A stretch of 64,000 bases of DNA from Bacteroidota bacterium (GTDB taxonomy: Bacteria; Bacteroidota; Bacteroidia; UKL13-3): positions 62,001-126,000 of the forward strand of contig JAIXSO010000047.1 in assembly GCA_027484685.1 (NCBI GenBank). The letters are read 5' to 3'. Shown piece after piece: positions 40,689 through 44,313 of the stretch. The position numbers and the translations under genes are program-made. The notes under the pieces were generated by a model, which saw nothing but the letters and a program-made list of their open reading frames with translations, was not told the DNA's origin and searched no databases. Every line of letters begins with the position of its first letter. The stretch's first letter is position 1.

Positions 40689-41708
40689 ATGTCGAAAATA
40701 AAATTTGCAGTAGTTGGTTTAGGCCATATTGGTAAACGCCATGCAGATATGATTATACAAAACAATGATGCTGAACTTATTGCATTAATTGAAACCAATA
40801 CTGAAATAAACCTTCAAAACTACCAAGTTCCTGTTTTTGATTCTTTAGCAAGTTTTTTCAAAGCTAATTTAGCTGCTAATATTATTTGTATTGCAACACC
40901 CAATTACTTGCATTGTGAACAAGCTATTCAATGCATGCAAAATGGATTAGACGTAATTATTGAAAAACCCATGGGTTTATCTGTAAACGAATGTAATGAT
41001 GTAATAGAAACTTCGCAGCAATTAAATAAAAAAGTATTTTGTGTTATGCAAAATAGGTACTCCCCTCCTTCTATTTGGTTAAAAGAAATAGTTAGTTCTA
41101 ATATTTTAGGTAAAATTTTTCATATTCAAATTAATTGTTTTTGGAACAGAGATAAAAAGTACTATAAACCAAATGGTTGGAAAGGAAAACTAGCGCAAGA
41201 TGGAGGTACTTTATTTACTCAATTTAGCCATTTCGTAGATACTCTTTATTGGATTTTTGGAGATATTACCCATATCAATGCCAAATTCAATAACTTTAAC
41301 CATCAACAAAGTATTGAGTTTGAAGACTCTGGTTTTATACATTTTGACTTAGTTAACGGAGGTTCAGGAAGTTTAAATTATAGTACCTCTGCATTTAATA
41401 AAAATATTGAAAGCAGTATTACTATTTTAGCCGAAAATGGTAGCGTAAAAATAGGCGGCCAGTACATGGAAAAAGTATTGCATTGTGAAATAAAAGATTA
41501 CCAAATGCCTGAATTAGCTGCTACTAATCCACCAAACGATTATGGAACCTACAAAGGAAGTGCTGCAAATCACGAGTATGTAATTAACAATGCCATTCAA
41601 ACTTTATTTGGCAATGAAAATATAAAAACTCCAGCTCTTGAAGGCTTTAAAGTGGTGGAAATAATTGAGAGGATTTATGAGTTGCGAGTTAACGAGTTGG
41701 TGAGTTAG
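40689..41708 (+). CDS. Gfo/Idh/MocA-family oxidoreductase (WbpB/WlbA-like)
   Basis: The 339-aa protein has an NAD-binding start AVVGLGHIGKRHADMI, the EKPMGLS motif (Lys near the substrate) near residue 96, and a C-terminal Gfo/Idh domain with QDGGTLFTQFSHFVDTLYW. That pattern matches WlbA/WbpB, which oxidise C3 of UDP-GlcNAcA. Downstream acetyltransferase and aminotransferase genes complete the known trio. The last residues (ELRVNELVS) and the stop codon are encoded by the first units of a GAGTTGCGGGTT-type repeat array, so the native C-terminus seems altered. Confidence 0.88.
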   Translation: MSKIKFAVVGLGHIGKRHADMIIQNNDAELIALIETNTEINLQNYQVPVFDSLASFFKANLAANIICIATPNYLHCEQAIQCMQNGLDVIIEKPMGLSVNECNDVIETSQQLNKKVFCVMQNRYSPPSIWLKEIVSSNILGKIFHIQINCFWNRDKKYYKPNGWKGKLAQDGGTLFTQFSHFVDTLYWIFGDITHINAKFNNFNHQQSIEFEDSGFIHFDLVNGGSGSLNYSTSAFNKNIESSITILAENGSVKIGGQYMEKVLHCEIKDYQMPELAATNPPNDYGTYKGSAANHEYVINNAIQTLFGNENIKTPALEGFKVVEIIERIYELRVNELVS

Positions 41709-41946
41709 CAGGTTGATGGGTTGCGGGTTAGCGAGTTACGAGTTGGAGAGTTGCGGGTTAGCGGTTTAACGAGTTGATGGGTTGAGAGGTTGCGAGTTGG
41801 AGAGTTAAGAGTTGTGAGTTAATTAGAGCATTTGTAAATCGCAAAAAACGTAACAAAAATAACCCGAAACAAAAAAACTCGTAACAAAAACAACCCGAAA
41901 CCCGCAACAAAAATAACCCGTAACAAAAACAACCCGAAACAAAAAG
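41679..41946 (+). repeat. Inverted low-complexity arrays (GAGTTGCGGGTT arm and AACCCGNAAC arm)
   Basis: From 41679 to 41820 a G/T-rich array repeats variants of GAGTTGCGGGTTAGC (e.g. 41679, 41718, 41738, 41752). From about 41839 to 41946 the + strand switches to A/C-rich units such as AACCCGTAACAAAAAC, whose GTTNCGGGTT complement equals the first arm's core. The two arms are separated by about 20 bases. Units vary in both sequence and length, so this is not a simple microsatellite. The left arm extends into the preceding CDS. Confidence 0.85.
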
Positions 41947-41955
41947 AACATAAAA

Positions 41956-42531
41956 ATGAAAAACTATTACTCACACGAAACAGCTATAATAGACGAAGGT
42001 TGTAATATTGGTAATGATGTTAAAATTTGGCACTTTTCACATATCATGCCTAATTGTGTTATTGGCGATAGATGTAACATAGGGCAAAATGTAGTGATTA
42101 GTCCTGAAGTTGTTTTAGGTAAAAATGTTAAAATTCAAAACAATGTTTCAATATATACCGGTGTAATTTGTGAAGATGATGTTTTCTTAGGTCCTTCAAT
42201 GGTATTCACTAATGTTATAAATCCAAGAAGCTCGGTAAACAGAAAAAACGAATATGCCAAAACACTAGTAAAAAAAGGGGCAAGTATTGGTGCTAATGCA
42301 ACTATTATTTGCGGTAATACCATAGGTGAATATGCTATGATTGGCGCAGGTGCAGTAATTACAAAAAACATAAAACCTTATGCTTTAGTAGTTGGTAATC
42401 CTGCCAAAGAAATAGGTTGGGTTAGCGAATATGGTCACCGCCTTCATTTCAATGAAAAAGGAATTGCATTTTGCCATGAAACCAAACAGGAATATGAGTT
42501 GAAGGATGGGGCTGTTAGAAGAGTGAGTTGA
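41956..42531 (+). CDS. WbpD/WlbB-like sugar N-acetyltransferase
   Basis: The 191-aa left-handed beta-helix protein begins [28 protein letters not shown] and ends its helix with [19 protein letters not shown], both characteristic of WbpD/WlbB, which acetylate the 3-amino group of UDP-GlcNAc3NA. The [12 protein letters not shown] loop with its conserved Asn is present. It sits between the oxidoreductase and the aminotransferase of the same pathway. The final residues (RRVS) and the stop run into a GAG-type repeat array. Confidence 0.9.
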
Positions 42532-42608
42532 GAGTTGAGCACTGAGATGTGAGACGTGAGACGTGAGAATTGAGCACTGAGAGTTGAGTTTTGAGAATTG
42601 AGACATGA
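42521..42608 (+). repeat. GAG-type low-complexity array, left arm
   Basis: The array consists of variable units of 7-9 bases built on TGAGAnnTGAG, for example GTGAGACGTGAGACGTGAG at 42550. An 11-mer GAGCACTGAGA appears twice (42537, 42572) and again inside the WbpE-like gene at 43596. The array begins in the last codons of the acetyltransferase and ends about 36 bases before the four-helix-bundle gene. Its complement follows that gene. Confidence 0.85.
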
Positions 42609-42644
42609 GCTTCAATGATATTTATAAAGAAATTTATTTAACAA

Positions 42645-43025
42645 ATGGAAAGAGCCAAAATAAATAGTTTTAGAGATTTAAGAGTTTATCAAAAAGCATT
42701 TGAATTATCCATGGAAATTTTTATATTGACTAAAACTTTTCCTAAAGAAGAGTTATACTCTTTAACAGATCAAATAAGAAGGTCATCAAGGTCTGTTTGT
42801 GGTCAAACTGCGGAAGCATTTAGGAAAAGGAAATATCCAAAATCATTTAGTGCTTCTTTAAATGGTGCGGAAGGTGAAGCATCCGAAACTCAAAATTGGA
42901 TCCTTTTTGCTAAAGCTTGTGATTATATTAATGAAGAAACAAAGATGAGAATTTTTCAAGGATACGAAGATGTAATAGGAATGCTAGTTACTATGCAAAA
43001 GAACTCTGAAAACTGGTCGTTTTAA
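42645..43025 (+). CDS. Four-helix-bundle protein (23S rRNA intervening-sequence type)
   Basis: The 126-aa protein has the family landmarks FRDLRVYQKAFELSMEIF at the start, FPKEELYSLTDQIRRSSRSV in the centre and AEGEASETQNWILFAKAC near the C-terminus. These S23/IVP proteins were first found in 23S rRNA intervening sequences of Leptospira and are scattered in Bacteroidota; no enzymatic activity is known, though relatives (Avd) bind nucleic acid. It has nothing to do with sugar synthesis and splits the WbpD and WbpE genes. It is bracketed by complementary repeat arms (42521-42608 and 43026-43079). Confidence 0.9.
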   Translation: MERAKINSFRDLRVYQKAFELSMEIFILTKTFPKEELYSLTDQIRRSSRSVCGQTAEAFRKRKYPKSFSASLNGAEGEASETQNWILFAKACDYINEETKMRIFQGYEDVIGMLVTMQKNSENWSF

Positions 43026-43079
43026 TTTTCTCATCTCATATCCCATCGCTCATTTCACAATTCTCATATCCCATTTTAA
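43026..43079 (+). repeat. CTC-type low-complexity array, right arm
   Basis: Directly after the stop of the four-helix-bundle gene lie units such as TTCTCATCTCATATCCCAT and ATTCTCATATCCCAT. Read on the other strand they become ATGGGATATGAGAATTG, the same kind of unit as in the left arm at 42521-42608. The array stops 10 bases before the WbpE-like start codon. Confidence 0.8.
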
Positions 43080-43089
43080 AAATCAAAGT

Positions 43090-44313
43090 ATGAATAAAAT
43101 ACAAATGGTTGACCTAAAAAGTCAATATATCAAAATAAAAGCTGAAGTTGATGCAGGTATACAAGAAGTAATCAATAATACCCAATTCATTAAAGGACCT
43201 CAAATAAAAGTATTTGAAGAAAACTTAGCCACTTACCTAAATGTAAAACATGTAATAGCATGTGCCAATGGAACTGATGCACTGCAAATAGCTATGATGG
43301 CATTAGATTTAAAACCAGGAGATGAAATAATTTTACCCGTTTTTACTTATGTAGCTACAGCCGAAGTAATAGCATTATTGGGCTTAACTCCCGTTATGAT
43401 TGATGTAGAACCAGATACGTTTTGCATAGATACCAATAAAATTGAACAAAAAATAACGTCTAAAACCAAAGCTATTGTTCCAGTTCATTTATTTGGTCAA
43501 TGTACCAATATGGATGAAATAATGCGCCTTGCTCATAAACATAATCTGTATGTTATTGAAGATACCGCGCAAGCTTTAGGTGCAACCTATGAAATGAGCA
43601 CTGAGAGAGAAGAAATGAGAGAGCGAAGCTCATCTCCCATTTCTCAATTCACATCTCCCATCTCTCATCTCCCAACTCTCAAATCTCAAAAAGCAGGGAC
43701 AATAGGAAACATAGGAACGACTTCATTCTTCCCGTCAAAAAATCTTGGCTGTTATGGCGATGGTGGTGCATTATTTACCAACGAGGATGAATTGGCTAAA
43801 AAAATAAGAATGATTTGTAATCATGGTCAATCGGTTCAATATGTGCATGATTTAATAGGCGTAAACTCAAGATTAGATAGCATACAAGCCGCTGTTTTAA
43901 ACGCTAAGTTACCTCATTTAAAAAGTTATGAAATAGCTCGAAATGAAGCTGCAAACTGGTACGATGAATTGTTGGGTAATCATCCTAACATCATTATTCC
44001 TAAACGAAATCCTAAATCAACACATGTTTTCCATCAATACACTATACAAATTCGAAGTCCCAAATTCGAAATTCGAAATTTAATTAAAGAAGAGATGCAA
44101 AAAAGGGGAATTCCTACAATGGTTTATTATCCAATTAGTTTGCATCAACAAAATGCTTTTAAGGCTTTTAATAGCTTGAACGAGGATTTTCCAGTTTCAG
44201 ATAATTTATGCCAAACGGTATTATCGCTGCCTATTCATACCGAAATGACCAAGAAAGTGGTGGAATATATTTGTAAAAACTTAATTGAAGTAATTGAAAA
44301 ATCAAATCTATAA
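43090..44313 (+). CDS. WbpE/WlbC-like sugar aminotransferase with repeat-encoded insertions
   Basis: The 407-aa DegT-family protein opens IQMVDLKSQYIKIKAEVD and has NTQFIKGPQIKVFEENLA, CANGTDALQIAMMAL, VIEDTAQALGA and the PLP Lys217 in SFFPSKNLGCYGDGGA, all typical of WbpE/WlbC (3-amino transfer to UDP-3-keto-GlcNAcA). It is about 40 residues longer than usual. Two low-complexity insertions account for this: residues about 168-200, from a GAG/CTC array, and about 320-330 (QIRSPKFEIRN), from an ATTCGAA array. Both keep the frame. The first lies just before AGTIGNIG, in a surface loop of the family; activity is possible but unproven. Confidence 0.9.
   Translation: MNKIQMVDLKSQYIKIKAEVDAGIQEVINNTQFIKGPQIKVFEENLATYLNVKHVIACANGTDALQIAMMALDLKPGDEIILPVFTYVATAEVIALLGLTPVMIDVEPDTFCIDTNKIEQKITSKTKAIVPVHLFGQCTNMDEIMRLAHKHNLYVIEDTAQALGATYEMSTEREEMRERSSSPISQFTSPISHLPTLKSQKAGTIGNIGTTSFFPSKNLGCYGDGGALFTNEDELAKKIRMICNHGQSVQYVHDLIGVNSRLDSIQAAVLNAKLPHLKSYEIARNEAANWYDELLGNHPNIIIPKRNPKSTHVFHQYTIQIRSPKFEIRNLIKEEMQKRGIPTMVYYPISLHQQNAFKAFNSLNEDFPVSDNLCQTVLSLPIHTEMTKKVVEYICKNLIEVIEKSNL
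43591..43690 (+). repeat. GAG/CTC array inside the WbpE-like coding sequence
   Basis: Left half: purine-rich GAG units including the 11-mer GAGCACTGAGA (43596) shared with the intergenic array. Right half: CTC units (CATCTCCCATTTCTC, CATCTCCCATCTCTC). The halves meet at GAGCGAAGCTC (43621-43631), a perfect 4-bp stem with GAA loop, and extend as an imperfect hairpin. About 33 codons are added without breaking the frame. Confidence 0.85.
44048..44081 (+). repeat. ATTCGAA-type repeat inside the WbpE-like coding sequence
   Basis: The stretch reads AAATTCGAAGTCCC, then AAATTCGAAATTCGAAATTT, that is three TTCGAA palindromes spaced 9-17 bases apart. It encodes residues Q320-N330 in a place where relatives have a short loop (between FHQYTI and the KRGIPTMVYYP strand). 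Confidence 0.6.

Follow-up and report, generated by a model that had tools for sequence, protein, structure and literature searches.

IVP genes between complementary, degenerate 7/8-nt repeat arms in Bacteroidota and other bacteria

The window (the whole stretch of 64,000 nt analysed here) belongs to a Bacteroidota genome of 4.53 Mb in 72 contigs (G000) and contains a small gene enclosed by two repeat arrays, as well as arrays that enclose no gene. The features are as follows:

41679..41949, + strand: intergenic arm pair without an enclosed gene, GAGTTGCGGGTTA-type units followed by complementary AACCCGAAAC-type units (p=0.0375, alignment score 22)
42521..42610, + strand: 5' arm, a G-rich degenerate heptad array of TGAGANN type (best-pairing part 42564-42603)
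42645..43025, + strand: IVP gene (23S_rRNA_IVP, four helix bundle), 126 aa (PF05635, E 2.4e-29)
43029..43079, + strand: 3' arm, a C-rich array of CTC type that complements the 5' arm and pairs best at 43029-43066
43090..44313, + strand: DegT/DnrJ/EryC1/StrS aminotransferase gene, host of an in-frame array (PF01041, E 1.2e-116)
43591..43690, + strand: gene-less array within the DegT gene, GAG-type and then CTC-type units, in frame

The 5' arm begins where the hexapeptide transferase gene ends, and 10 nt separate the end of the 3' arm (43079) from the DegT start codon. Repeat units at this locus are degenerate and mostly 7 nt long. The best local pairing joins 42564-42603 with 43029-43066; ranked against mismatched arms of the same genome the pair has p=0.0088, and as an RNA duplex it has a predicted energy of -43.4 kcal/mol, equalled by 0 of 20 mismatched combinations, which confirms the GAG and CTC arms that a preliminary description, made from the sequence alone, had placed around a four-helix-bundle gene. 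The motif GAGCACTGAGA occurs four times in the 4.5-Mb genome (reversed control: 0), namely twice in the 5' arm, once in the DegT insert and once in a GAG-type array on contig C38, and the looser TGAGANNTGAG has 44 genome occurrences, with 17 for the reversed control.

The enclosed gene encodes a member of the IVP (S23) family, whose name derives from the intervening sequences of 23S rRNA and which to our knowledge has no established function. Its protein scores 102.1 bits against PF05635 (cut-off 33.8), the sole match in Pfam, where no transposase family was matched, and its closest solved chains are 2rld and 2gsc. G000 carries 12 IVP matches, all of them over the PF05635 cut-off, and each of the 10 IVPs scanned, including the one in the window, matched TIGR02436. 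An IVP match was present in 193 of 247 Bacteroidota genomes sampled, and the closest named loci to one IVP gene of G000 (L001) were Bacteroidota MAGs; contigs of relatives were scanned with a single IVP protein as query. The median dN/dS of 0.099 over 180 pairs indicates purifying selection on the IVP proteins. A table of phage elements of Flavobacterium columnare also includes a four helix bundle gene (PMC5524665).

We aligned the stretch following the upstream stop codon to the reverse complement of the stretch preceding the downstream start codon and ranked the score among mismatched combinations. In G000 this arm test covered codirectional gaps, with the twelfth IVP copy (L010), which has an internal stop, left out. 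Matched arms were found at p<=0.05 in 8 of 11 IVP gaps versus 21 of 216 gaps without IVP, and at p<=0.01 in 6 of 11 versus 6 of 216, in agreement with the earlier suggestion that arms and gene belong together. The IVP gaps that failed were L002, L006 and L009: L006 reached a score of 49 with wider flanks (equalled by 0 of 70 mismatched combinations), L002 scored well as an RNA duplex, and L009 did so neither as a duplex nor with wider flanks. Among 145 genes with codirectional neighbours, matched flanks (p<=0.01) were seen for three of four IVP genes versus 2 of 141 others. As RNA duplexes, the own arms of the 11 G000 loci averaged -30.8 kcal/mol versus -14.3 kcal/mol for mismatched arms, and at six of these loci none of the 20 mismatched combinations was as good, while at least 20 pairs between the flanks are expected in the predicted transcript fold at 8 of 11. 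By eye, most of the 12 copies have arrays on both sides, with repeat units (words) that differ by site. The arms of IVP genes are complementary beyond chance, which confirms the original observation; chance had been the alternative to be weighed by a genome-wide arm search, and the matched IVP gaps speak against it. Scoring of intergenic gaps for hairpins against dinucleotide shuffles was dropped because it was dominated by terminator-like hairpins.

Matched arms around IVP genes are general and occur in many bacteria. In a family sample of 36 loci (12 from G000 and 24 of 29 fetched, the other five being too short), the mean arm score was 33.0 for own and 19.9 for mismatched pairs. In a larger set, 98 of 143 loci, many of which are site orthologs, exceeded the 95th percentile of mismatched pairs, a level that none of the 143 reached when the flanks were taken 400 nt farther away (143 usable of 148 loci, five having too little flank; the incomplete L314 was also excluded). 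After clustering of the proteins, the 95th percentile was exceeded by 94 of 137 representatives at 72% identity (far flanks 6) and by 57 of 82 at 60% (far flanks 3), and the 99th percentile by 75 of 137 (far flanks 1) and 47 of 82 (far flanks 1), respectively; at 50% identity, 9 of 11 exceeded and no far flanks did. Clear arms were absent from 43 of the 137 representatives. The test gave p<=0.05 in 47 of 68 and 34 of 53 loci of two Bacteroidota sets and in 14 of 22 loci outside Bacteroidota or without assigned phylum. By record title, these positives comprise Acidobacteria (6/6), one each from Planctomycetota, Bipolaricaulota, Deltaproteobacteria and Syntrophales, CPR (1/2), Ignavibacteria/Melioribacter (1/2) and records titled just 'bacterium' (2/4); WOR-3, SAR324 and two Cloacimonadota-like records were negative in the arm test. 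Direct (non-inverted) flank similarity was also seen in some loci of the family sample, with averages of 37.4 for own and 20.8 for mismatched flanks that owe much to a few loci such as L043, and its mean was 21.0 in the 148-locus set. Among the papers listed in searches of open-licence literature without preprints, none had a title dealing with IVP genes enclosed by matched heptad arms.

The arms have a common anatomy. In 114 arm pairs, identity within the 5' arm was 0.52 at lags 7 and 14, 0.43 at lag 8 and 0.40 at lag 16, against 0.30 in shuffles, and was not raised at lags 6, 9 and 15; the best period over 143 loci was 7 in 86, 8 in 46, 9 in four, 6 in one and unclear in six. The 5' arm was G-richer than the 3' arm in 115 of 127 strong pairs and C-richer in 10, and since both strands of an inverted repeat read alike, this G-richness is that of the strand running towards the gene. 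In an 858-kb sample of G000, G-type arrays lay near stop codons in 19 cases versus 4 near starts and C-type arrays near starts in 12 versus 5 near stops (Fisher p 0.0011, both types together); the remainder of the 73 arrays in the placed set were mixed (22), within ORFs (9) or without placement (2). Stops in all three frames occurred in 41% of 5' arms versus 21% of shuffles and in 25% of 3' arms versus 12%, an excess that may be a consequence of the periodicity. By eye, the heptad arrays at L026 (G000 contig C39, about position 125,356) and L006 extend into the starts of ORFs, where they encode signal-peptide-like segments. A dispersed palindrome around GGTCGCTGAGCGAAGCCGAAGCG adjoins several arrays (G000 contig C10, positions 3896, 199234, 369679 and others).

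According to a rival explanation, the IVP is a passenger that is inert on the arms, and the arms have been selected solely because their stem in the mRNA loops the IVP ORF out, puts the upstream stop codon beside the downstream start codon and so keeps the operon working. Both neighbours were codirectional with the IVP gene at 190 of 212 loci (246 IVP ORFs minus 34 repeated or short ones or ones lacking near neighbours), the arms of 114 codirectional loci lie at a median distance of 2 nt to the stop codon upstream and of 8 nt to the start codon downstream, and the flank pairs expected at 8 of the 11 G000 loci fit as well. However, control genes are codirectional nearly as often (297/370), and 13 of 22 non-codirectional IVP loci (based on heuristic gene calls) have strong arms, six of which form one ortholog group between divergent genes. 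Armed loci are found antisense to both neighbours (L194, L320 and L322) and between convergent genes (L232, L274, L276 and L291), settings that offer no stop and start codons to be brought together. Stop-start joining was therefore rejected as the sole cause of the arms, which are associated with the gene and not with operon coupling alone. Given that the explanation also leaves the 7/8-nt words, their relation to the protein and the arrays elsewhere unaccounted for, we consider it unlikely.

The preliminary description had also suggested a mobile or self-extending repeat element. Among 399 IVP pairs with at least 70% identity, 366 share both flanking regions, 20 share one and 13 neither, and the highest identity of a pair sharing neither flank is 72.7%, implying that IVP genes long stay at their sites and are not recent movers, so that a recently mobile element is not supported. 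The arms, by contrast with mere slippage, change together: in 69 loci from 11 ortholog groups, the score was 33.4 for own arms versus 29.1 (sd 0.71) for permuted ortholog arms, a value reached in 0 of 5000 permutations. Two ortholog groups showed no excess of own over cross arms. The two arms of one site thus co-evolve, and the earlier view that simple slippage alone is insufficient holds. Repeat words are also related to the IVP protein: arms of IVP groups from different sites were more similar when the proteins were at least 58% identical than when they were less than 45% identical (30 versus 1228 group pairs, p 7e-5). Words differ, however, between two paralogs in a single genome whose IVPs are 72.7% identical. 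Matched arms, arm co-evolution, purifying selection and the presence of arms in non-codirectional settings together show that the IVP gene and its arms form one inherited unit.

Comparison of relatives revealed filled and gene-less states at the same sites. Between SufB and SufC, an IVP gene is present in 5 of 30 loci (the G044 copy is split across two frames), and several other loci have repeats of a different word and no gene; one of them is that of G036, a genome with a SufC 100% identical to that of G000. Between serC and serA, 8 of 30 loci contain an IVP gene; within the genus, four of nine loci do and five of nine have a gene-less region of 82-104 nt with another word, and in other genera 10 of 21 loci have a gap of 12-29 nt. 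The pntAB-pntB gap was compared in 10 genomes from the genus: G000, G041 and G043 share one IVP type; G036, G039, G040, G042 and apparently G038, where a contig end cuts the site, have a diverged type whose arms are different; and G037 and G044 have gene-less repeats. At the pntAA-pntAB site, a profile search found IVP in several sister genomes. Different words at the same sites in relatives indicate wholesale word replacement at fixed sites. A sister-genome comparison proposed earlier thus yielded both states, but at the three sites compared in filled and empty form not only the gene but also the arms differed, and no clean gene loss leaving the same arms was seen. Filled and empty sites in sister species may serve as natural experiments. 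In G269, two complementary arrays about 264 nt apart have no IVP profile match between them (L427, 8192-8548), perhaps a gene-less or decayed unit.

The DegT insert at 43591-43690, which the preliminary description had called an apparent empty copy of the neighbouring element, does exist as a site, but it is an in-frame insert with a weak hairpin (alignment score 17, z -1.36, with 15 of 200 shuffles folding equally well or better). Together with the word changes between species, this does not support the idea that the two window sites are one element with and without cargo. Among 30 DegT homologs, nine have an in-frame array in this loop and 21 have a short loop; the arms of the arrays look complementary by eye in seven of nine and unclear in G005 and G014. 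Sister pairs with different words are G012/G016 (support 1.00) and G041/G043 (0.84) in a tree for which the variable loop was removed from 6 of 30 sequences only and was still present in the other rows. Repeat words here rewrite an enzyme segment in frame. In the G010 homolog (L111), the insert seems by eye to consist of two words in the order A-B-A'-B', not nested, and the window's DegT ORF has a second heptad array of AAATTCG type at 44036-44080, seen at lag 7. An Rfam match to MIR1507 at 43589-43686 was dismissed as chance (24.8 bits versus a gathering threshold of 73).

Arrays are commoner where IVP genes are abundant, with lineage as a confounder. One detector found no arrays in the 360 kb sampled from 11 IVP-free genomes, two in 200 kb of four further IVP-free genomes (one low-complexity, the other in the 88%-complete G061), one in 200 kb of six one-IVP genomes and 12 in 400 kb of 10 IVP-rich genomes, of which three had none and in which at least two arrays look low-complexity. 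The difference between IVP-rich (12 in 400 kb) and IVP-free genomes (2 in 560 kb) had p 0.00095, and the shuffled background per 100 kb was 0.37 in the first IVP-free set and 0.08 in the IVP-rich set. In housekeeping-anchored loci of one family (filled IVP sites included), array and IVP numbers correlated with rho 0.37 (p 0.009, n=48), and with rho 0.32 (p 0.052, n=38) without the window's genus. In G000, the detector found 74 arrays in 858 kb, mostly without IVP. This abundance might point to a neutral by-product, in which lax intergenic regions gather 7/8-nt slippage arrays and quasi-palindromes, copying errors keep arms complementary and IVP genes just survive there; among the long simple repeats of many bacteria, heptads are indeed reported to be the most abundant class (PMC4679880). 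We think this quite unlikely, considering that IVP genes have matched arms far more often than other genes or gaps do and that purifying selection on IVP is strong.

By anatomy, the closest known systems are rRNA intervening sequences; by repeat type, the Nostoc P6b stems; and by logic, REPIN-RAYT. The sole membership borne out by our tests is that of the IVP protein family. In the intervening sequence of Coxiella 23S rRNA, an S23p/IVP ORF lies in a loop closed by complementary termini and cut by RNase III (PMC4990558), and the protein family and, at most loci although not all, the looped ORF between complementary termini are common to both. Here, however, the units lie between protein genes (all flanking ORFs examined at the 12 G000 copies are protein genes, not 23S rRNA helices), at many sites per genome, with arms made of 7/8-nt arrays with site-specific words. 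By analogy with Coxiella, the stem could be an RNase III site and the unit be tolerated because it is excised from transcripts, which we regard as very unlikely because mismatches are frequent in the arms and IVP sites antisense to their neighbours have arms too. In the P6b stem-loop of the Nostoc tRNA-Leu intron, heptads of Class I (TDNGATT) and Class II (NNTGAGT) replace one another, and their origin is stated there to be unknown (PMC4476775). The complementary degenerate heptad stem and the word replacement at a fixed site are found in both cases, a resemblance only, but P6b concerns one locus and two classes, whereas here many sites and words are involved and some loops contain an IVP gene. 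Heptanucleotide direct repeats such as TAACTGA, known from Beggiatoaceae, Cyanobacteria and some Bacteroidetes, are likewise intergenic heptad arrays, but consist of one fixed heptamer, with no IVP gene or matched arms reported in the sections consulted (PMC4679880). Classical transposons and insertion sequences differ from the present units, which have no transposase family and no recent copies at unrelated sites. REPIN-RAYT systems combine a stably kept gene with dispersed gene-less palindromic repeats. They are alike in logic alone, as IVP is no transposase by its matched families (no Y1 tyrosine HUH signature) and the words here are site-specific.

Our leading reading, tentative and held with a little less than even confidence, is that these units represent an IVP-dependent hairpin-repeat system, in which the IVP gene is looped within inverted degenerate 7/8-nt arms. 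The arms would be the ends of the unit, comparable to terminal inverted repeats, and the predicted RNA fold loops the IVP gene out between them. The IVP protein might bind the stems, as RNA or hairpin DNA; repair or template switching could use one arm as the source of the other and, with slippage by 7 or 8 nt at a time adding units, rewrite both; and the same IVP activity might seed gene-less arrays elsewhere, as by-products in trans. Such a combination of binding, arm copying, slippage and seeding would account for the site-specific words, the joint change of both arms and the greater frequency of arrays in genomes with many IVP genes. Arrays far from IVP genes, the scarce movement of IVP genes, the lineage confounding, the third of loci without clear arms, the two ortholog groups without own-arm excess and the 72.7% paralogs with different words count against it. 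The link between IVP genes and such arms makes the job of the IVP family and the origin of degenerate heptad repeats testable together.

A bolder version of the hairpin-repeat reading, which we consider somewhat unlikely, is that IVPs are the agents of a widespread system: with host copying enzymes, possibly a reverse transcriptase, they would write the complementary arms around themselves and seed gene-less arrays not only between other genes but even within them, each site being locked to its word by arm templating. In favour of the leading reading, the Avd model NF033474 was matched by 5 of 10 IVPs scanned (best E 2.4e-10), and the member shown scored 25.3 bits against a cut-off of 80; IVP may thus be a distant sequence relative of the DGR accessory protein Avd, which we take as a lead only. 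G000 also has four matches to the reverse-transcriptase domain RVT_1 on contigs C4, C23 and C32 (L459-L462), three of them over the cut-off, and it is possible, again as a lead only, that these genes are the partner of the Avd-like protein.
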